From Oscillospiraceae bacterium (GTDB taxonomy: Bacteria > Bacillota > Clostridia > UBA1381), in contig JAFLUC010000026.1 of NCBI GenBank assembly GCA_022509005.1, positions 1 through 32,105 of the forward strand: 32,105 nucleotides of DNA, given 5' to 3'. Positions 1,546 to 11,248 of this stretch are shown here, piece after piece. The position numbers and the translations under genes were made by a program. The notes beneath the pieces were generated by a model. It made no database searches, was not told the origin of the DNA, and was given only the letters and a program-made list of their open reading frames with translations. Position 1 is the first letter of the stretch, and every line of letters begins with the position of its first letter.

Positions 1546-1604
1546 TGGTGCAGATGGCGGGACTTGAACCCGCACGGAGTTACCCACATGAACCTGAATC
1601 ATGC
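1546..1604 (-). repeat. Attachment site copy: 3' fragment of tRNA-Leu
   Basis: The 59 bases are identical to 11164-11222 and cover the tRNA from one base outside the anticodon stem to the encoded CCA. The sequence beyond 1604 does not continue into a tRNA 5' half, so this is not a working tRNA. It is the host 3' end displaced when the element supplied its own copy. With a one-base insertion, similarity extends a few bases further (CGCGTC). Confidence 0.92.
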
Positions 1605-1651: not shown

Positions 1652-1863
1652 ATTTTTCGCAATAATATAAGATTTTATGCACAAAGAGTATCAAGATTAC
1701 CTTTGTGCTTGTTTATTTTTCACTTACTTTATGCAAGAAGTTTTTTAAAGTATTATGATTGTAACATATTTTCTTCACTTTTACAACACAAAAATACAAG
1801 TTTTTACTATTTTTTAATGGGTAAAGCTCAAAGCATAATTTAAGAATAATTCAGAACAAATCA
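1652..1863 (+). repeat. Left copy of ~212-bp direct repeat flanking the cargo
   Basis: This stretch aligns nearly end to end with 3605-3817 in the same orientation, with scattered substitutions and single-base gaps. Both copies contain the same terminator-like hairpin (here 1679-1708) and the shared strings ATTGTAACATATTTTC and AGCATAATTTAAGAATAA. The short ORF across it (1601-1843) begins inside the tRNA fragment and is not credible. Confidence 0.85.
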
Positions 1864-1996
1864 CTTTAATTTTATTTATATAATCACAAATTAGATCAAA
1901 TTAAAATAGAACAAGCTATTTTAAATAAACCAATATTCCAACGTGTAAAAGTTCCAATATTTTTGAGAAATTATCATAGAAATATATTTTAAGTTA

Positions 1997-2146: not shown

Positions 2147-2533
2147 ATGACAAGTGATTCTGCAGTTGTTGAAATTGAAAATAAATTAGTGGATGCTGCA
2201 ATAAACTCTGCACTGATTCTTATTTGTTTATTTTTGGCATATATACAAGGAGTGTGGATTTTAAATATCATTGTAAGTTTTAAACGAAAAAAAAGAAATT
2301 TTATTTTTCATCCACTATTAGCTCTATCAGCAGGAGCTGTTTGTTCTGGTATATGTTTTACTATTCAAAATTTAGATTTATTGATGGGAAAGAAAATCAC
2401 TGTTGATATATTGGCATCAAACATTTTAGCTGCTGTAATATTATCATTATCTATTACGGGGTTTATTGGGCTTATTGTATATGTGTTAAGAGAATATTTT
2501 TATATGAAAGGAATAAAAGAAGATGAGCAGTAA
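2147..2533 (+). CDS. Small integral membrane protein of the cargo pair
   Basis: I do not recognise a family. The 128-residue protein has a short acidic N-terminus and about three hydrophobic segments (roughly residues 18-44, 54-74 and 87-115). A basic loop FKRKKRN (45-51) follows the first, which predicts its cytoplasmic side, and an acidic tail ends the protein. The ribosome site is GAGGAG, nine bases before ATG. The last 11 bases overlap the start of the MinD-like ATPase gene, so the two are translationally coupled and probably work as a pair, this one giving a membrane anchor, pore or sensor. That role is inferred from operon structure only. The gene is very AT-rich like its partner, in keeping with recent transfer of the pair as a unit. 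Confidence 0.75.
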   Translation: MTSDSAVVEIENKLVDAAINSALILICLFLAYIQGVWILNIIVSFKRKKRNFIFHPLLALSAGAVCSGICFTIQNLDLLMGKKITVDILASNILAAVILSLSITGFIGLIVYVLREYFYMKGIKEDEQ

Positions 2534-3599
2534 TAATAAAAATAATTCACCAACGTTTATTAGTATAGTAAGTGGAAAGGGTGGAACTGGAAAAAGTTTG
2601 TTTACTGCAGTGTTAGGAAGTTGTTTGGCTAAAGGCAATTGTAAAGTACTATTGGTAGATATGGATATATATGTTCGAGGATTGACCATCCTTCTATCCT
2701 CTTATATGGATTCTGATAATAGTAAAAATTCTATTTCTGATTATATAAGTGAGGGGAATAGAAATAAAGAGTTTTCAGTATATAGATTTCAGGAGTGTGA
2801 ATTTATCCCAGCCGTAAAGGAGATTAGTGAACCGTTAGTTTTTTCTGCTGATAATAACTTTTTTATCGAATTTCCAGATAAGTTTTTCGACGATTTAAAA
2901 TCATTTGCAGAAAATAAGTTTTATGATGTCGTTTTGTTAGATTGTCGCTCAGGGCTAGATTCATCAATTATCTCTTGTGCAAAGAATTCTGATTTCGTTT
3001 TTTCAGTATCGGAAGATGATGATGTTTGTTTGAATGCAAATCTTAATTTGGTAAACTATTTTAGACATGATGAAAGAATAAATAATATATATACAATCAT
3101 AAATAAGGGGCGAAGGATCTCGAATGTTCAAGATATAAGAGATAAAATTGATCGTATATTTGATTTTAGTTGTATTGGTGTAATTCCATTTGATGAACAG
3201 ATTATGGATGATTATGGAAAACCACGATTTTGGTACTCTGTATATGATACATTATATTTTTATGGCTTAATAATGACATGGGAAAAATTTCAAGCAAAAA
3301 CAAAAATAAAATATAACATAGATGAAAAAAAATATAACATAAGAAATGATAAAACTAAAATAATAAAGAAACAAGCATTCTCAACTAAATCTATTTTTAG
3401 GCTGTATGGCTTGTTGTTAATAATTCTTTCTGCTATACTACCATTTATCGGTGAGTTTGTTGATTTTCATTATATAAAGTATTTTGATCATCTGCCTTCT
3501 ATACTAGCAATTATTGGAGTACTAATGCTTGGAGCCTCATCTAGTAATTTTAGAAGATTGATGCTAGGTAAAGATGATAATCCTACTCGTTTCGATTAA
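2523..3599 (+). CDS. MinD/ParA-type P-loop ATPase with C-terminal membrane hairpin
   Basis: This 358-residue protein has a deviant Walker A, GKGGTGKS (about 18-25), the hallmark of the MinD/ParA/BY-kinase class. LLVDMD (43-48) supplies the switch Asp and DVVLLDCRSGLD (135-146) the Walker B. INKGRR near 193-198 fits the base-recognition strand. After the ATPase core (to about 255) a lysine-rich linker leads to two hydrophobic segments, about 294-312 and 324-340. Classical MinD and ParA have no such segments and MinD uses an amphipathic tail, so this form is built into the membrane. The start overlaps the preceding membrane-protein gene by 11 bp. A terminator lies at 3631-3675. No ParB, MinC, MinE, capsule or pilus genes are near, so a partition, septum or polysaccharide role has no support. 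The ATPase class is certain; the biological role is unknown. Confidence 0.85.
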   Translation: MSSNNKNNSPTFISIVSGKGGTGKSLFTAVLGSCLAKGNCKVLLVDMDIYVRGLTILLSSYMDSDNSKNSISDYISEGNRNKEFSVYRFQECEFIPAVKEISEPLVFSADNNFFIEFPDKFFDDLKSFAENKFYDVVLLDCRSGLDSSIISCAKNSDFVFSVSEDDDVCLNANLNLVNYFRHDERINNIYTIINKGRRISNVQDIRDKIDRIFDFSCIGVIPFDEQIMDDYGKPRFWYSVYDTLYFYGLIMTWEKFQAKTKIKYNIDEKKYNIRNDKTKIIKKQAFSTKSIFRLYGLLLIILSAILPFIGEFVDFHYIKYFDHLPSILAIIGVLMLGASSSNFRRLMLGKDDNPTRFD

Positions 3600-3604
3600 T
3601 AAAT

Positions 3605-3817
3605 ATTTTTCATAATAATATAAGATTTTCAAGCACAAAGAGTATCAAGAGTACCTTTGTGCTTATTTATTTTTTCACTTGCTTTATGAAAGGGATTTGT
3701 TTAAGTATTTTGATTGTAACATATTTTCATAGCTTTGGCAACAGAAAAATACAAGTTTTACTATTATTTTATTGGTAAATACAAAAGCATAATTTAAGAA
3801 TAAGTTAGAACAAATCA
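3605..3817 (+). repeat. Right copy of ~212-bp direct repeat flanking the cargo
   Basis: This is the partner of 1652-1863, starting six bases after the ATPase stop codon. The copy carries the terminator at 3631-3675. Weak similarity may continue a few dozen bases beyond 3817. The two copies bracket exactly the promoter and the two cargo genes. Confidence 0.85.
3631..3675 (+). terminator. Terminator of the cargo operon
   Basis: AAGCACAAAG (3631-3640) pairs with CTTTGTGCTT (3655-3664), with a further GTA/TAC pair possible inside the loop, followed by T-rich sequence to 3675. The left repeat has an equivalent hairpin (1679-1708) with no gene in front of it. Confidence 0.75.
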
Positions 3818-3907
3818 TATCAAAATTATTAAATCCAGAAGAAATCGGATTTAGTCATTTTAATTTGGAACAAGGTAAAACAAACCAGTGTAAAACTGCA
3901 TGAAAAG

Positions 3908-3943: not shown

Positions 3944-3971
3944 TAGACAACTTCTTTAAAAATGCTATAAT
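3944..3971 (+). promoter_or_regulatory. Promoter of the tandem paralogue operon
   Basis: TAGACA (3944-3949), a 16-bp spacer and TATAAT (3966-3971). Confidence 0.6.
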
Positions 3972-3983
3972 AAATACATAAAC

Positions 3984-4004
3984 AAGAGATAAACAAAGTC
4001 TCTT
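3984..4004 (+). promoter_or_regulatory. 5' leader hairpin, first of three alike in the element
   Basis: AAGAGA (3984-3989) and TCTCTT (3999-4004) flank nine bases and are followed by AAATAAAAAAATT and then the AAAGGAG ribosome site. Two other element operons (leaders at 5899-5919 and 7651-7673) show the same layout with different stem sequences. Confidence 0.5.
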
Positions 4005-4029
4005 AAATAAAAAAATTATTATAAAGGAG

Positions 4030-4497
4030 TTGTTCATCATGACAAACAGTGAAATCAAAATTAAAAGAAATCCAAATGGTAAGGTTATTGCAGGGATAGT
4101 TTCAAGAGTATTCCGCGATGAGGCAAACAAATTTGGCACAGATGAATTTAAACTGTGGGAAGAATTTATCGCGCAGTATCCAGAAGCCAAGATGATAGTA
4201 AGCAGAGGCGCAAAGGCTGCGCCTAAGCCAAAAGAAGAAAGAAAGGTCAGACCTTCGTATGCTGCCATGATTAAGTTTATCAATACACAGGAAAATTCCG
4301 AAATACATCTTGAAACAATGAATAAATATAAGAATATGGCAAAGATCAACGGAAATTCATATAACGTGGTTGTGGAATGGTTTAATAATACGTTTAAAAA
4401 TACGCTTGATTATAAAGCCGTATTTAGAGGAGTTGTCACGGAAACCACGCGCAAGATAGAAGTTGTTAATACAAATCCAGAAGTAGTAGAAGCGTAA
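4030..4497 (+). CDS. Element protein of unknown function, paralogue A
   Basis: I do not recognise a family. The protein has 155 residues and is soluble: a short basic N-terminus, a helical section EFKLWEEFIAQYPEAKMIV (about 36-54), a charged Lys/Ala/Pro linker, and a second helical section ending YNVVVEWFNNTFKNTLDYKAVF (about 115-136). It aligns along its length with the next gene product: EFKLWEEFIAQYPEA against EYIVYRQIMHDFPQL, then VVEWFNNTFKNTLDYK against VCDWFKAQFPDYK. The pair is therefore a tandem duplication. The ribosome site is AAAGGAG, 12 bases before ATG. The spacing to the partner is 25 bp, so they share one operon with the promoter at 3944. Sequence gives no catalytic or DNA-binding motif that I can name. 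Confidence 0.7.
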   Translation: MFIMTNSEIKIKRNPNGKVIAGIVSRVFRDEANKFGTDEFKLWEEFIAQYPEAKMIVSRGAKAAPKPKEERKVRPSYAAMIKFINTQENSEIHLETMNKYKNMAKINGNSYNVVVEWFNNTFKNTLDYKAVFRGVVTETTRKIEVVNTNPEVVEA

Positions 4498-4522
4498 TTT
4501 AAGAAAGGAAAGGTAAAAGATT

Positions 4523-4966
4523 ATGAAAAACGGATACAAGATTGATTTTGAAAAGAACACAATAACGGTAAATTATAAGTTTGCGGCAGCCATGAAAGAA
4601 TATGGCAGTCCAGAATACATAGTTTATAGACAGATTATGCATGATTTTCCCCAGCTTGAACTTGTTATAAAATCAGGCAGACAGCAGAAAACACCGCGAT
4701 ATAATAAAAATGTTAAGTATGAAAATATGGAAAAGTATATCAGCACTTTTGACAATAGTGAGGAGCTTATGGAAAGATTTAATATCGTTAAATCAAAATC
4801 CGTAATATTTGCAAGTCCGTATAAGTATGTATGTGATTGGTTTAAAGCGCAATTTCCTGATTACAAAGAAATACCGAATTTTGATAACAAGGGCATTATC
4901 CTAAAGATTGAGCCTGCACCAAAAGCAGAAGATTATAAGCAGAAAGAAGAAGAACCTGCTGCATGA
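4523..4966 (+). CDS. Element protein of unknown function, paralogue B
   Basis: The 147-residue protein is the diverged tandem copy of the preceding gene product. Conserved positions include the EY/EF helix start, an acidic QYP/DFP turn, a basic linker (KSGRQQKTPRYNK), an NSE/NSEE segment before the middle helix, and the VxxWFxxxF core at about 109-117. It ends in a Lys/Glu-rich tail. The ribosome site GGAAAGG lies nine bases upstream, and a terminator follows at 5000-5031. Keeping two diverged copies in a small element suggests a heteromer or two DNA or protein targets; this is inference only. No database family is recognised. Confidence 0.7.
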   Translation: MKNGYKIDFEKNTITVNYKFAAAMKEYGSPEYIVYRQIMHDFPQLELVIKSGRQQKTPRYNKNVKYENMEKYISTFDNSEELMERFNIVKSKSVIFASPYKYVCDWFKAQFPDYKEIPNFDNKGIILKIEPAPKAEDYKQKEEEPAA

Positions 4967-4999
4967 AAAGAGTTGTTAAAAAATGAATAAGCACAAATT

Positions 5000-5031
5000 G
5001 AGCTTGTCCGATGATAGAACAGGCTCTTTTT
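5000..5031 (+). terminator. Terminator of the tandem paralogue operon
   Basis: GAGCTTGT (5000-5007) pairs with ACAGGCTC (5019-5026), with one G-T wobble, and is followed by TTTTTG. Confidence 0.7.
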
Positions 5032-5112
5032 GTTTGTAAATTAGGGCATACTCTATTTTTACATTCCAAAAGGGCACGTTTTGTGTAAAATATAAATTGT
5101 TTTTCGGTTATT

Positions 5113-5127
5113 TTTACATATTGTAAA
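5113..5127. promoter_or_regulatory. Palindrome upstream of the serine recombinase promoter
   Basis: TTTAC-N5-GTAAA lies 7 bp before the -35 box and further TTTACAT strings surround it. Small resolvases often bind and repress at such AT-rich dyads next to their own promoter, so this could be part of a res-like site or an operator. The function is inferred from position only. Confidence 0.4.
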
Positions 5128-5134
5128 TAATATA

Positions 5135-5163
5135 TTGACTTTATATTTACATTATGGTATAAT
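5135..5163 (+). promoter_or_regulatory. Promoter of the serine recombinase gene
   Basis: TTGACT (5135-5140), a 17-bp spacer and TATAAT (5158-5163); a strong near-consensus sigma-A promoter. Confidence 0.75.
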
Positions 5164-5197
5164 ATAAGTAAAGAAAATCAAAGGAGTTGTTTATATT

Positions 5198-5758
5198 ATG
5201 AAAATAGCGTATGTCCGCGTATCGACTATTGAGCAGAACGAGGCGCGTCAAGTCGAGGCTTTAAAGAAACACAATATTGATAAATGGTTTATTGAGAAAA
5301 TCAGCGCAAAGGACACCAACAGACCAGAGCTACAAAATATGTTAGAGTTTGCGCGTGAAAACGATGTTGTATATATCCACGATTTCAGCCGTATAGCGCG
5401 CAGCACCAAAGATTTATTAGATATAGTTGAAACGCTGCAAAACAAAGGCGTGTATCTTGTAAGCAATAAAGAGAACATAGACACAAGCACGCCAACAGGA
5501 AAGTTAATGCTTACCATGATAGGCGCAATAAATGAATTTGAGCGTCAGAACCTTTTAGAACGGCAGCGCGAGGGCATAGCCATAGCAAAGCAGCAAGGTA
5601 AATACAAAGGCAAAAAAGCTATTCAGATTGATAATTTCGCTGAATACTACAACAGATATAAAAATCGCGAATTTAACAAAGTGCAGCTTGCTAAGGAATT
5701 AAATATCACGCGTCCGACACTTGACAAGCTGATAAAAGAACATGAAGCAGCTTTATAA
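5198..5758 (+). CDS. Small serine recombinase (resolvase/invertase family)
   Basis: At 186 residues this is the usual size of the resolvase/invertase class. The N-terminal catalytic domain opens MKIAYVRVSTIEQN with nucleophile Ser9 after the conserved YVRVS. Further family marks are DFSRIARS (about residues 62-69), where the Arg residues sit in the active site, TPTGKLMLTMIGAINEFER (about 98-116), and the long E helix LLERQREGIAIAKQQGKYKG. A C-terminal helix-turn-helix (NKVQLAKELNITRPTLDKLIKEH, about 159-181) binds DNA. It lacks the long C-terminal domain of large serine integrases, so it is better suited to resolving dimers or inverting DNA than to integrating the element, which has a tyrosine integrase. 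The ribosome site is AAAGGAG. I found no obvious invertible segment by eye. Confidence 0.9.
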   Translation: MKIAYVRVSTIEQNEARQVEALKKHNIDKWFIEKISAKDTNRPELQNMLEFARENDVVYIHDFSRIARSTKDLLDIVETLQNKGVYLVSNKENIDTSTPTGKLMLTMIGAINEFERQNLLERQREGIAIAKQQGKYKGKKAIQIDNFAEYYNRYKNREFNKVQLAKELNITRPTLDKLIKEHEAAL

Positions 5759-5946: not shown

Positions 5947-6531
5947 ATGGCATTATAGACATATGCAAATCAAAGAACTGTGAAAATTCACAGAGAAAAA
6001 GCAACTACTGATTTTTTGGGAATAAAAAATGAAAACTGGAAAGCTGCAAGCCGTGATCTAAGCGCACATGCGCTAAAATTATATATGTATCTTGCTTCTA
6101 ATGCTAATAACTTTGAGTTAGCGTTATCACCAGCAGCAATACTAAAAGAAATAGGTATGGCAAGATCAACATATCATGACCAATTTCACATCTTAGAAAG
6201 TAAAGGTTATATCAAGCATTTGCGTGGTAACACCTACGAATTTTTTGAAACACCGCAGTCGAGCCACGACAACACCACAAAAGAGTTTTCAGACGGACAT
6301 GACTTTACGGCAGACGAATTACCTATACCGACAGCCGCTAATTCTGTATTGGCAGAGGATATAGAAATAAATAATAATAAATCACAAAATAATATAATAA
6401 ATAGTGAAAAAAGTCCAATAATAAAGTCATACAAGCCAAAAGAACAAGTAATATATATTAAATCTCCAGAAGCAAAAGGAACAAACAGACCAAAGCCAAT
6501 AGAGAGAAAAAAGCCTTTTAGTGATTTCTGA
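5947..6531 (+). CDS. Winged-helix replication-initiator-like protein with in-frame TAG at codon 4
   Basis: The AAAGGAG ribosome site points to ATG 5947, which reads Met-Ala-Leu-TAG-Thr-Tyr-Ala-Asn-Gln-Arg-Thr and then stays open to TGA at 6529-6531. The TYANQRTV-x-IHREK opening is, as I recall it, the normal N-terminus of this Clostridia plasmid/element family, so the TAG (5956-5958) falls inside the true gene. The only in-frame start after the TAG is GTG 5980, which has no ribosome site of its own. The body holds a winged-helix domain: FLGIKNENWKAASRDLSAHALKLYMYLASNA, then LSPAAILKEIGMARSTYHDQFHILESKGYI, the recognition helix. An Asn-rich tail follows. The likely role is DNA binding, either replication control or regulation. 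Either the TAG is read through (Gln fits), translation restarts at GTG, or the gene is broken. Confidence 0.65.
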
Positions 6532-6684
6532 TTGCGGCAGCCGCACGCTATAAATTCTGTTACTTCTGGATAAAGAGCAATCATATATAAAATCATGTAT
6601 CTTCTATAATTCCTTTTTTATCTGATATGACTTTTATATGATAGATAAGAGGCGCGGCAGCCGACACGCGGACATTCCTATCAT
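6532..6684. other. Convergent intergenic stretch with repeated GC-rich palindromes
   Basis: There is no ORF. Two copies of the GCGGCAGCCG motif lie here (6534-6544 and 6654-6663), in an otherwise AT-rich stretch, plus one CCAGAAG site on the minus strand (6563-6569). Confidence 0.5.
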
Positions 6685-6730
6685 AAAAAGAAAAAATCGC
6701 CTATAACGGCATTTTAAACCGTTATAGGCG
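6685..6730 (-). terminator. Strong terminator of the minus-strand nuclease operon
   Basis: The 12-bp arms CGCCTATAACGG (6698-6709) and its exact complement (6719-6730) enclose nine bases. On the minus strand the stem is followed by a T-run (6685-6697). It could also slow transcripts from the winged-helix gene on the other side. Confidence 0.85.
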
Positions 6731-6735
6731 TTGTG

Positions 6736-7014
6736 TTATAAGTTAATACTAATATTACCATTAAAGCCTTTCAGTAAATCGTCAAGAGCCTTTTCAACGC
6801 AATCATAGGCTTTTTCTTCAAGCTCTTTTTCAAGCTGTTTTTGAGCTTCAATTTCCTGTTGCTTCTGGCGGTGATAGTCAAGCATAAAATCGCGGTATTC
6901 TTGCTAAAAATTAAAAAATTCTTTGCTGTTAAATTCTTCTTTTGAAATTAAAGAACGTTTTAAATTTCTTTCGTGAAATTCCATAAGTTTTTTATTATAT
7001 TCTCTTTCCGTCAT
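6736..7014 (-). CDS. Small coiled-coil protein with in-frame TAG at codon 37
   Basis: ATG 7014 overlaps the TGA of the upstream nuclease gene (ATGA). The frame runs to TAA at 6736-6738, 92 residues, with one interruption, TAG at 6904-6906. Before it: MTEREYNKKLMEFHERN and on to EFFNF. After it: QEYRDFMLDYHRQKQQEIEA, then a heptad-rich Glu/Lys/Gln helix and LDDLLKGFNGNISINL. The reading on both sides is charged, helical and continuous, which suggests one protein with Gln or a similar residue at the TAG. No family is recognised; its place after a ribbon-helix-helix and a nuclease gene suggests an accessory factor. If TAG is a true stop, only a 36-residue peptide is made. No internal start has a good ribosome site. 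Confidence 0.6.
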
Positions 7015-7475
7015 TCGGTTTCAATCCTTTCTGTAATTTCTTCTAATTCTGCTATTGGAATAAAGGCAATAACGCTTGTTTTATATGCGTTACGCTGCTG
7101 CCGCGTTTCGATATTCTGTTTATTTTTATAGTAGTATTCGCGCAAATCTTCTGTATTGATTTTATATAAAATTCCGTTGACCTTATCAACAAAAACAAGA
7201 CAATTTGCAGCAGTGGTATGAAACCAACCATTATAATTTCTTTCAACATTTGCAGTTAGTTCAATACAGATTTTATTTTCTGTATAAGTGCAAGTTTGAG
7301 TTTTTACTTCATAGCTGATATTATCAATCAGAAGATCAATATCCTGCTGCTAATATTCCTTATCTTCACTTACATCAATAAGAGCGCAACCTAAACCGCA
7401 ATAATAGTCATATACTATCTATTCGCCGCATTTGCCTTTTGCCTTGTCGCGTAAAAAATCATTTTCAAAAGCCAT
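7011..7475 (-). CDS. PD-(D/E)XK-like nuclease with in-frame TAG at codons 19 and 42
   Basis: ATG 7475 lies inside the end of the upstream ribbon-helix-helix gene (11-bp overlap). The frame runs 155 codons to TGA at 7011-7013, broken only by TAG at 7419-7421 and 7350-7352. After the second TAG comes QQDIDLLIDNISYEVKTQ: Asp45/Asp47, then Glu56-Val-Lys58, the spacing of a PD-(D/E)XK nuclease core. ICIELTANVE and NYNGWFHTTAANCLVFVD follow, again typical of small restriction-like nucleases that start with an FEN/YYxxxG helix. Both TAGs precede the active site, so a strict stop would leave 18 residues and no enzyme. Gln fits at both places, as homologous nucleases commonly have a polar residue just before the DID motif (my recollection of the family). 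It is either recoded or a pseudogene; sequence alone cannot settle it. Confidence 0.6.
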
Positions 7476-7620
7476 TACGCGTACCGCCTTTTTGTATTGT
7501 TTCTTCCAGAAGTAAACGGATATAATCACCTAATTTGCGCTTGCTTCTGGCTGCTAATGCGGAATAGGTGTTATATGTAGCTTCATCAACGCGGAAACTA
7601 ATTGTTTTATTTTTTCTCAA
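7465..7620 (-). CDS. Ribbon-helix-helix DNA-binding protein
   Basis: TTG 7620 is chosen because an in-frame TAA stands directly before it and AAAGGA lies ten bases upstream. The 51-residue product reads LRKNKTISFRVDEATYNTY, then SALAARSKRKLGDYIRLLLEET. A basic strand followed by two helices is the Arc/CopG/MobC ribbon-helix-helix pattern. Such proteins repress their own operon or, as MobC/TraM-like factors, bind an origin of transfer. It is first in a three-gene minus-strand operon with overlapping ends (nuclease, then coiled-coil protein), and a GC-rich folded zone lies 120-250 bp upstream. The operator candidates are dyads at 7651-7673 and 7698-7720. The fold is fairly sure; relaxosome versus repressor is open. 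Confidence 0.7.
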   Translation of the reverse strand: MRKNKTISFRVDEATYNTYSALAARSKRKLGDYIRLLLEETIQKGGTRNGF

Positions 7621-8019: not shown

Positions 8020-8409
8020 TTATTTATTACCGCAATATGGACATGGGGATCTATCTATAAATTTTCCGCAATAATTGCAAGCCCACCTGTGTGGAGTATT
8101 TCCATTTTCTGTATTTTTGTTAGAATATGATTTTTTTTCGTTTAAGTATGGCTCTTCTTTGCGCGAATATAGTTTTTCAACTTTCAAAATTAAGAGATCT
8201 GTGTTCTCTATTAAATGTCCAAAACCATAAAGAGTAAAAGAAGAAACCCAAGAAACTAAAGAACCTATCACAATAACTATAACACCTAAAAAAGCTAAAT
8301 CATCATCAGTTGCTATCATTACTATACCAGAAATGACAGAGCCAATAATCCCTATCCAGCATACAACCTGTGCTAATGTTTTTATTTTTCCGCCTATATT
8401 ATCAAACAT
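8020..8409 (-). CDS. Two-helix membrane protein with C-terminal zinc ribbon
   Basis: The 129-residue protein has two hydrophobic segments (about 13-33 and 38-62), then a charged linker of some 45 residues. Its C-terminal CNYCGK...CPYCGNK holds four cysteines (about 111, 114, 123, 126) in two CxxC pairs, a rubredoxin-like or zinc-ribbon knuckle. The ribosome site AAGGAGTG lies seven bases before ATG 8409. Such membrane-plus-zinc-ribbon proteins are common and mostly uncharacterised; the ribbon should lie in the cytoplasm. It stands alone, with a terminator after it and a hairpin zone before it, so the sequence offers no partner. The gene is certain; the function is unknown. Confidence 0.75.
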   Translation of the reverse strand: MFDNIGGKIKTLAQVVCWIGIIGSVISGIVMIATDDDLAFLGVIVIVIGSLVSWVSSFTLYGFGHLIENTDLLILKVEKLYSRKEEPYLNEKKSYSNKNTENGNTPHRWACNYCGKFIDRSPCPYCGNK

Positions 8410-8586: not shown

Positions 8587-8747
8587 ACCACAACAATAAT
8601 CTCAAAATATGGATATTACACAGCCATACCATATTGAAGCCTGCGTTTTTTACAAAACACAAAACAGCTGTGCAATACCTAAATAGGTAACACGAAAAAA
8701 GATACTCGTAGAAATATCCAGATTTATTTTGAAATTATTGTTGTGGT
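8587..8747. repeat. Imperfect inverted repeat, arms of ~30 bp
   Basis: Arm 8587-8616 begins ACCACAACAATAAT and arm 8714-8747 ends with its exact complement, with one substitution and a few inserted bases further in. The interval of about 97 bp contains a terminator-like stem and a palindrome. Confidence 0.75.
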
Positions 8748-8887: not shown

Positions 8888-8916
8888 TTGCAAAAATCCA
8901 AAAGGAATGATATTAT
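8888..8916 (+). promoter_or_regulatory. Promoter of the WYL regulator
   Basis: TTGCAA (8888-8893), a 17-bp spacer and TATTAT (8911-8916). It overlaps an upstream in-frame TTG, which therefore cannot be the start codon of the regulator. Confidence 0.65.
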
Positions 8917-8950
8917 AGATATAATTACCGATAGACAAGGAGCGGAATAT

Positions 8951-9988
8951 ATGCCAAAAACGAAGAACCAAAAGCTAAAGATACTATACGTTGCAAAATA
9001 TCTGCTTGAAAATTCAGATGAAAACCACCCTGTAGTAACAGATAAGATTGTTGATTATCTTGAAAAATGCGGAATATCTGCCGAAAAACGCAGCGTTTAC
9101 AAAGATATAAATGTTTTAGCAACCGATATTGATAATGGCGGTGATTTAGGAATTGAGATAATACGCGGACATAGAAATATGTATAGGCTGCTGTCAAGAC
9201 CATTTGATTTTGATGATTTGCGGCTGTTGGCGCAATGCGTTTATTCAATGAAATTTATTCCAGAAGCACAAGCGAAAAAATTGATAAATGTTTTAGGTAA
9301 ATTTTGCAGCAAACATCAAGCTAATGATTTAAAATCAGAAACTATTCTATGTGATAGAGTAAAATCTAAGCAGAAAGGCACAATGCAGATTATCAGTGCC
9401 ATAAATACGGCTATGGCAAAGCAGCAAGACGGCAAGCCGCACACTCCGCAAAAAATAAGCTTTAAATATTTAAAATACACTATTAATAATGTTCATCAGC
9501 AAGTAGAACGCAGAAAAGGAAATACTTATAAGGTAAGTCCTTATAAAATGATTATCAATGACGGCAACTATTACCTATTGGCATTTGATGATAAAGATCA
9601 GGCTTTTCGCACATATAGAATTGACCGCATGAAAAATCTGAAAATCCTTGACGAACCAAGAAACGGTGAAGATGTTTTTGCGGAAATTGATTTAACTACA
9701 TATACACGCCGCGTATTTGGTATGTATGGCGGCGCAAAAGAAACCGTAACAATGCGCTTTATAAATCCATTGCTTGACACTGTTGTTGACCGTTTCGGAA
9801 CAGGCGCACACATATTATATATGCCAGATGATAAAAGTCATTTTAAGGTTATTACAGATGTTGAGATAAGCAAGCAATTTTTCGGTTGGATTTGTGGTTT
9901 TGGTAATGAAGCTGTTATAGAAAGTCCTCAAAACGTGGTTGAACAGTTTAACGCACATATTGAAAAGATACAAAATAAATATAAATAA
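8951..9988 (+). CDS. WYL-domain transcriptional regulator
   Basis: The start is ATG 8951, after AAGGAG and downstream of the promoter -10 box; the product has 345 residues. An N-terminal winged helix-turn-helix (about 1-75) includes KILYVAKYLLENSDENHPV and the recognition region SAEKRSVYKDINVLA. The middle WYL domain (about 150-235) shows KISFKYLKYTI, TYKVSPYKMIINDGNYYLLAFDD and RTYRIDRM, the ligand-binding Sm-like fold. A C-terminal WCX-type segment follows (FGMYGGAKETVTMRF to the end). Proteins of this build sense nucleotides or nucleic-acid products and often control phage-defence and mobile-element genes. It is transcribed alone toward the convergent integrase gene, with a terminator between. 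It probably controls the element's own genes, which is inferred from location. Confidence 0.88.
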   Translation: MPKTKNQKLKILYVAKYLLENSDENHPVVTDKIVDYLEKCGISAEKRSVYKDINVLATDIDNGGDLGIEIIRGHRNMYRLLSRPFDFDDLRLLAQCVYSMKFIPEAQAKKLINVLGKFCSKHQANDLKSETILCDRVKSKQKGTMQIISAINTAMAKQQDGKPHTPQKISFKYLKYTINNVHQQVERRKGNTYKVSPYKMIINDGNYYLLAFDDKDQAFRTYRIDRMKNLKILDEPRNGEDVFAEIDLTTYTRRVFGMYGGAKETVTMRFINPLLDTVVDRFGTGAHILYMPDDKSHFKVITDVEISKQFFGWICGFGNEAVIESPQNVVEQFNAHIEKIQNKYK

Positions 9989-10083: not shown

Positions 10084-11049
10084 TTATTCTATTTTCAGAT
10101 GTTTTGGATTGTTTAGTTCATCACTATTGGATTTGATGATTTGTTCCAGAGGATTGAAGCGTTCATAGTCTTTTGCTAAATCTGCGCCGTATAAGTTCGC
10201 ATAATGCAGCGTCATTTCAAGCGTTTTATGACCTAATAGCTTCTGGAGCTGCGCTACTCCGCCACCTGCAAGAAGATAATTTTTAGCAAAGGTGTGACGG
10301 AATAGATGAACAGATGACTTTGTTACATCTCTGCTTCTGTTGTAAAGGCGTATTTCCTGTTGGATAGTGCGTACACACCATTGTTTTAAATCTCTGTTAG
10401 GAAACAAATAATCATCATCTGAATGCAGCCATAATGATAAATACTTTTTTAAGACCTTTTCCAATTCAGATGTTATAGGTATAATCTGCTGCTTGCGGTT
10501 TTTTGTGTGGCGCAGCCTTACCGTATGCGCTTCAAAATCAACGTCAGATATTTTAATATTTACAACGGTGCGCACTCTGTTACCTGTTGCAATAAAATAG
10601 TTTACTAAAGCCCAGTTGCGCCAATCGCTCCATTTGTTTGATTTTGGCTGCGCTAACAGCCTTTTTAACTCTGATGTTGTGTATGCTTCTTTTGGTTCTG
10701 CGTCAGACTTCATAAGGCAAAACTTGAATGGCTTCATGTATTCTCTATCCATACAGAAATATAAGAATACGCGAAAGCCTCTTAAATGTGTATTAATGGT
10801 TGTTGCTTTTCGTGCCTTTTGCTGCTGCTCCTGATAGATTACATTTTCAATGTAGTCTAAATCAATTTCTGATAGGTATTCAACAGGATAATTTTCTTTA
10901 AAGAATTTTAAAGTTGACCTGTAATACTCTAACGTCAAAGGACTTAAATTTTTTACAATACAGTGCTTGTAAAACTTTTCCGCTGCGTCAGCATATTTCA
11001 TGCCGCCATACAAATTTTCTTCATTGATAATTGTTGTTAATCGTGCCAT
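10084..11049 (-). CDS. Tyrosine integrase of the element
   Basis: This 321-residue site-specific recombinase has an N-terminal SAM-like core-binding domain (about 17-105, YADAAEKFYKHCIVKNLSP) and a C-terminal catalytic domain. Catalytic residues are visible: Arg158 in ATGNRVR, Lys183 in the HTKNRK hairpin, His248 and Arg251 in HLFRH, His274 in LLGH and nucleophile Tyr283 in LHYANLY. It lies 114 bp from the intact tRNA-Leu gene and reads away from it, the usual place for an enzyme that uses the tRNA 3' end as its target. The 59-bp repeat at both ends supports tRNA-Leu as its site. The ribosome site is TAGGAG before ATG 11049. No excisionase gene is recognised. Family and function are nearly certain. 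Confidence 0.95.
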   Translation of the reverse strand: MARLTTIINEENLYGGMKYADAAEKFYKHCIVKNLSPLTLEYYRSTLKFFKENYPVEYLSEIDLDYIENVIYQEQQQKARKATTINTHLRGFRVFLYFCMDREYMKPFKFCLMKSDAEPKEAYTTSELKRLLAQPKSNKWSDWRNWALVNYFIATGNRVRTVVNIKISDVDFEAHTVRLRHTKNRKQQIIPITSELEKVLKKYLSLWLHSDDDYLFPNRDLKQWCVRTIQQEIRLYNRSRDVTKSSVHLFRHTFAKNYLLAGGGVAQLQKLLGHKTLEMTLHYANLYGADLAKDYERFNPLEQIIKSNSDELNNPKHLKIE

Positions 11050-11163: not shown

Positions 11164-11248
11164 TGGTGCAGATGGCGGGACTTGAACCCGCACGGAGTTA
11201 CCCACATGAACCTGAATCATGCGCGTCTGCCGATTCCGCCACATCTGC
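11164..11248 (-). tRNA. tRNA-Leu (anticodon CAG), restored by the element
   Basis: The minus strand reads an 85-nt class II tRNA. It starts GCAGATGTGGCGGAAT and has an anticodon stem CATGA/TCATG around loop TTCAGGT with CAG, a long variable arm, the T-arm GGGTTCAAGTCCC, acceptor pairing GCAGATG/CATCTGC, and an encoded CCA. The 3' 59 bases are the element's copy. The 5' part and promoter side are chromosomal. Confidence 0.95.

Follow-up and report, generated by a model that had tools for sequence, protein, structure and literature searches.

In-frame TAG codons, probably read as glutamine, in one module of a small integrative element from an Oscillospiraceae genome

Reading of the stop codon TAG as glutamine is known from gut phages, where decoding of this kind late in infection has been proven by proteomics (PMC9523058) and where the suppressor tRNAs of recoded phages, together with their processing, have been described (PMC10879173). 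Among mobile elements of more modest size, PICIs measure around 15 kb, carry terS in some cases, and have no plasmid state (PMC6092414). In the open-licence literature, prokaryotic recoding is described in phages only, and our searches there brought up no recoded plasmid, satellite, or other prokaryotic mobile element. The original prediction for this DNA held that TAG read as glutamine would be unusual in an integrative element. The described stop-recoding phages bring their own suppressor tRNA, whereas the elements presented here carry none and the host stops at TAG, so that the tRNA should come from elsewhere. What is new, although it may have been mentioned earlier elsewhere, is a known form of recoding on a new carrier that has no suppressor of its own.

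The element and its in-frame TAG codons

The window, the whole stretch of 32,105 nucleotides that was analyzed, is the entire contig C71 of the host MAG (G000; 2.56 Mb, 151 contigs, 95% complete). It contains a complete, AT-rich element of 9618 bp whose two boundaries are perfect 59-bp repeats matching the 3' end of tRNA-Leu (Table 1). Profile searches with Pfam and PHROGs detected no phage structural genes among the element genes, and no packaging gene or small terminase subunit (TerS) was recognized on the window element by the same searches, TerS being found only on the rat plasmids described below. The nuclease was assigned from its DID...EVK motif and from a weak match between the rat homologue and UPF0102; an AlphaFold model (pLDDT 47) was left out of the assignment.

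Table 1. Features of the integrative element, in positions of the window
Feature	Position	Strand	Remarks
Left attachment repeat, 3' part of tRNA-Leu(CAG), left end of element	1546..1604		59/59 identical to 11164-11222; spacing 9618 bp
Imperfect direct repeat of ~225 bp	1652..1876; second copy ~3605-3830		Flanks membrane-protein (TM)/ParA cargo; families D1, D2, D4, D9
Small membrane protein, no TAG	2147..2533	+	Cargo between the 225-bp repeats
ParA/MinD-like ATPase, no TAG	2523..3599	+	CbiA E=2.8e-12; AAA_31 1e-11; phrog_164 1e-18
Element gene, function not assigned, no TAG	4045..4497	+	
Element gene, function not assigned, no TAG	4523..4966	+	59% identical homologue adjoins the module in G007
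Serine recombinase/invertase, no TAG	5198..5758	+	Resolvase E=3e-43; phrog_125 3.5e-62
Winged-helix protein, replication-initiation similarity, TAG at codon 4	5947..6531	+	phrog_270 E=8e-9; 54% identical, TAG-free copy in G007
Coiled-coil gene, TAG at codon 37 in common with G007	6736..7014	-	dN/dS 0.16 downstream
PD-(D/E)XK-like nuclease (DID...EVK), TAG at codons 19 and 42	7011..7475	-	Codon alignment with G007 and pRGI00117; dN/dS 0.28
Ribbon-helix-helix protein, NikA-like, no TAG	7465..7620	-	NikA-like E=5e-4; TAG in G007 copy versus CAA in window
Membrane/zinc-ribbon gene, no TAG	8020..8409	-	
WYL-domain regulator, no TAG	8888..9988	+	WYL E=2e-12
Tyrosine integrase, no TAG, adjoins the tRNA-Leu site	10084..11049	-	Phage_integrase E=4e-29
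Right attachment repeat	11164..11222		Inside tRNA-Leu(CAG) gene 11164-11248 (-)

Two regions of the element contain repeats. Beside the left attachment site, the imperfect direct repeats enclose the genes for the membrane protein and the ParA-like ATPase, an arrangement that suggests a separate insertion of this cargo. In the gap between the zinc-ribbon and WYL genes lies a 23-bp inverted repeat (8587-8609 and 8725-8747) whose arms are 115 nt apart and 96% complementary, possibly an origin, an operator, or an RNA.

Three genes are interrupted by TAG at the positions originally reported: the winged-helix gene at 5956-5958 (+, codon 4), the PD-(D/E)XK-like nuclease gene at 7419-7421 (codon 19) and 7350-7352 (codon 42), and the coiled-coil gene at 6904-6906 (codon 37), the last three codons being on the minus strand. 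The accompanying claims about these genes also held: none contains a frameshift or an internal TAA or TGA, a ribosome site (AAAAAAGGAGC) stands intact ahead of the winged-helix ATG, the nuclease and coiled-coil genes retain their overlap with each other, and all 12 element genes terminate in TAA or TGA. The gene at 571-1368, which does end in TAG, lies outside the left repeat. The lack of TAG stops in the element is weak evidence, since only about 7% of long host open reading frames (ORFs) end in TAG. Within the element, TAG is restricted to the module of winged-helix, coiled-coil, nuclease, and ribbon-helix-helix genes, where it accounts for 4 of 22 glutamine-type codons, but for none of the 58 in the other element genes (Fisher P = 0.005). 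For the window alone, the probability that random point mutation would produce four TAGs and no other stop is 0.004-0.016. In the absence of readthrough the products would be 3 (winged-helix), 18 (nuclease), and 36 (coiled-coil) residues long, and the nuclease would end before its DID...EVK motif, taken as the catalytic core. All four in-frame TAGs are genuine, and ordinary decay does not account for them; the weakest is that at codon 4 of the winged-helix gene, which has Thr opposite it in the second module copy.

Related modules in the genus and in rat-caecum plasmids

Among the 95 genomes of the order that were searched, a close copy of the module was found in only one other, a MAG of the same genus as the host (G007, contig C76, 3734 bp). 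The two copies have diverged considerably (nuclease 81% identical, coiled-coil 60/91, winged-helix 54%). Inspection of other copies of the element had been proposed as a check on the prediction, and this one proved to contain five TAGs, partly shared with the window, no TAA, and one TGA. The shared TAGs are those at nuclease codon 42 and coiled-coil codon 37; at two others (column 122 of the nuclease alignment and column 44 of the ribbon-helix-helix alignment) the window has CAG or CAA, and at one it has AAT. The winged-helix copy is TAG-free. The TGA directly follows the shared TAG of the coiled-coil gene (columns 37-38), and the downstream sequence is still conserved, with a dN/dS of 0.16.

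A tblastn search with the window nuclease also identified pRGI00117 (HG796263), a 7167-bp circular plasmid from rat caecum whose nuclease shares 41% identity; pRGI00100 (HG796260) is its sister plasmid. The paper describing these plasmids called genes by standard methods and mentions neither stop codons nor the genetic code (PMC3913684). When pRGI00117 is read with TAG as glutamine, its short annotated fragments merge into longer genes, including the nuclease (4 TAGs), a terminase small subunit (2 TAGs; phrog_2538, E=7e-29), a GIY-YIG nuclease, a helix-turn-helix gene, and a coiled-coil gene. The genes of pRGI00100 are likewise split by TAG; they include a TerS 64% identical to that of pRGI00117 and, at 6008-118 across the origin of the record, a 563-codon ResIII/DEAD helicase with 5 TAGs that is annotated as separate fragments. 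One of these TAGs occupies the Gln position of QxxGRxxR (ITIE[TAG]VLGRIRG), which we take to be an SF2 helicase motif. In the deposited records, the TerS genes and the helicase gene are split at TAG or missed. Since TAG was read through in order to find the frames, their support comes from homology between the plasmids and not from openness alone. The Rep3 initiator operons of both plasmids are TAG-free (0 of 38 glutamine-type codons, compared with 18 of 59 elsewhere in the genes analyzed, P = 7e-5). TerS on the rat plasmids has no TerL alongside; its relatives on phages and phage-like plasmids adjoin the large terminase.

The TAG-rich operon of pRGI00117 (3959-5632) encodes glutamine by CAA and TAG with no CAG at all, as if TAG had replaced CAG.

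Searches of IMG/VR, phage records, and GTDB genomes for relatives of the nuclease returned only the copy in G007, pRGI00117, and weak standard-code relatives, and no recoded relative of the winged-helix gene, the gene at 4523, TerS, or the helicase was recognized in viral contigs.

What TAG encodes and what might read it

Alignment with homologues, the first check suggested for the prediction, placed glutamine codons opposite TAG at both nuclease positions. In the order window, G007, and pRGI00117, codon 19 is TAG, CAG, and TAG, and codon 42 is TAG, TAG, and CAA; since two standard-code relatives (phage contig L082 and the Selenomonas plasmid pSRC5) have Gln at codon 42, TAG there replaces a conserved Gln. 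The ribbon-helix-helix gene provides a further pair at alignment column 44 (CAA in the window, TAG in G007), as does the rat TerS at position 19 (TAG/CAA). Glutamine is found at 5 of the 16 TAG columns that have a sense partner, against 0.85 expected (P = 0.001), and it has the top total BLOSUM62 score of the 20 residues at these columns, followed by E, D, and K; the variable columns oppose mostly D, K, E, R, and N. The guess that glutamine is inserted was therefore a good one, and we consider it highly probable that TAG encodes glutamine in the module. Over 16 aligned genes in the four elements, the internal stops comprise 27 TAG, 0 TAA, and 1 TGA (P <= 2.1e-11), where a TAG share of 29-36% would be expected from random mutation and 50-58% of new stops if only C-to-T and G-to-A changes occurred. 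Between the window and G007, the nuclease and coiled-coil genes show a dN/dS of 0.16-0.33 in the parts that follow the TAGs; by gene, dN/dS is 0.28 for the nuclease, 0.20 for the coiled coil, and 0.27 for the winged helix. The corresponding values for the rat TerS are 0.23 after the TAGs and 0.21 for the pair.

In the host, TAG is a normal stop: in the 1.47 Mb examined (58% of the assembly), 58 of 816 long ORFs end in TAG, a count by which host-wide reassignment of TAG was ruled out. A pattern combining a CUA anticodon loop with a T-arm matched no CUA tRNA in the whole of the host MAG and only a tRNA-Leu in G007, and no TAG-reading tRNA was found on the window, the G007 contig, pRGI00117, or pRGI00100. 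The proposed search for a tRNA with this anticodon was thus negative for host and elements alike, though both host assemblies are incomplete MAGs and the absence is not proof. A scan of the same 58% of the host assembly for recoded prophages gave candidate contigs, of which those inspected resembled chance reading frames. The TAGs are not followed by a common leaky codon context.

A third genome of the genus (G001) encodes a CUA tRNA on contig C101 at 1838-1913 (-), directly upstream of a phage small-terminase-like gene, recognized by eye rather than by profile, which itself holds a TAG. This tRNA is nearest in sequence to tRNA-Ser and unlike the Gln tRNAs of the genus, and hence is not a proven Gln suppressor. 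Its presence shows that amber-reading phage material reaches this genus.

We propose that the effector module, comprising the replication-type winged-helix, nuclease, coiled-coil, and ribbon-helix-helix genes, uses TAG as a glutamine codon; the upkeep genes (integrase, recombinase, regulator, and ParA) keep to the normal code and are readable by the host. In an uninfected cell, termination at TAG would leave only the short peptides noted above. Infection by a recoding phage would bring a suppressor tRNA that allows the module to be translated, whereupon the element would either excise, replicate, and be packaged, or fight the phage, in the manner of a satellite. The lack of a detected CUA tRNA in host and element suggests supply in trans. 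A recoded phage is the most likely source, and the chance that it is the actual one seems to us about even; such a source would make the element satellite-like. From its size, integrase, attachment site, and lack of structural genes, and from the TerS on its plasmid relatives, we infer that the element is a satellite. No helper phage was identified. Taken as a whole, the reading that the module is recoded, unreadable to the host, and switched on by a TAG-recoding phage in a satellite-like manner is, we believe, rather probable. Counting against it are the failure to recognize a packaging gene on the window element or to identify a helper, the poor resemblance of the G001 tRNA to a Gln tRNA, the incompleteness of both host MAGs, the TGA in the G007 coiled coil, the Thr opposite the winged-helix TAG, and the good scores of E, D, and K at variable columns. 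The broader proposal, which we advance tentatively and would put slightly below an even chance, is that there is a class of phage satellites, made up of integrative elements and small plasmids, that writes its mobilization genes in the code of the helper, the helper's suppressor tRNA serving as the induction signal. The code would then be a lock, holding the satellite silent in its host until a recoded phage infects.

Ordinary decay would make the interrupted genes pseudogenes in which changes of CAG to TAG were frequent by chance. The nuclease does favor CAG over CAA, and with C-to-T and G-to-A changes alone TAG would make up 50-58% of new stops, as given above, yet the four elements together contain a single internal stop other than TAG, dN/dS after the TAGs is well below 1, TAGs are common to diverged copies, and the rat plasmids have 18 TAGs in their other genes but none in the adjoining rep genes. 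The mixture of stops, the shared TAGs, and the dN/dS values rule out decay by random or C-to-T mutation, leaving ordinary decay a very remote prospect among the three readings (recoding, suppression, or decay) that the original prediction had left open. The main rival to phage-switched expression is that the module is silent cargo, captured from a TAG-recoded phage or plasmid in which TAG was glutamine, with no reader here. The failure to find a suppressor in host or element, the confinement of TAG to what could be an acquired block, and the TAG-TGA pair in G007 all suit this explanation, which we regard as unlikely but worth serious attention; it fits poorly with the persistence of the module, free of TAA and frameshifts and with dN/dS of 0.14-0.28 at dS of 0.37-1.4, in two members of the genus, and with the TAG style throughout the small plasmids, although selection could have acted in the donor.

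It is less probable still that the host, or a resident prophage missed in its assembly, supplies a CUA tRNA, or that UAG is read inefficiently, giving constant low expression of the module. Several ordinary tRNAs are absent among the matches listed for the host MAG, whose completeness is 95%, and the phage remnant in G001 places a CUA tRNA within the genus; but the whole-genome pattern search gave no CUA tRNA in the host and only tRNA-Leu in G007, constant suppression would harm a host with 7% of its long ORFs ended by TAG, and the TAGs lack the context expected of leaky codons. We therefore retain a recoded module switched on by an infecting phage as the preferred reading. If a recoded phage supplies the tRNA, the genetic code becomes a switch by which infection turns on a satellite, database entries for small plasmids and satellites would be mis-annotated, and the question of why phages recode stops could be tested directly with a small system.

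Comparison with recoded phages, plasmids, and satellites

The element resembles the crAss-like and other gut phages that use code 15, TAG=Gln (PMC9523058, PMC10607447, PMC10879173), in having TAG at Gln positions and concentrated in some genes, in leaving the genes for replication and upkeep in the normal code, and in its gut setting and standard-code host. It differs from them in that the carriers are a 9.6-kb integrative element and 7-kb plasmids without phage structural genes, and in that code 15 phages carry a CUA suppressor tRNA, which is found neither on the window element and the G007 contig nor on the rat plasmids. The rat plasmids share the TAG usage of the window element, noted here for the first time, and pRGI00117 shares the homologous nuclease; unlike the element, the plasmids are extrachromosomal and carry TerS, GIY-YIG, or helicase genes. 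Like PICIs (PMC6092414), the element is small, at 9.6 kb, has an integrase and a specific attachment site, here in tRNA-Leu, and lacks structural genes; with TAG-coded genes and no recognized TerS, it departs from them, and whereas PICIs have no plasmid state, the relatives of the window element are Rep3 plasmids with a TAG-bearing TerS. In carrying TerS without TerL, pRGI00117 and pRGI00100 match some satellites.
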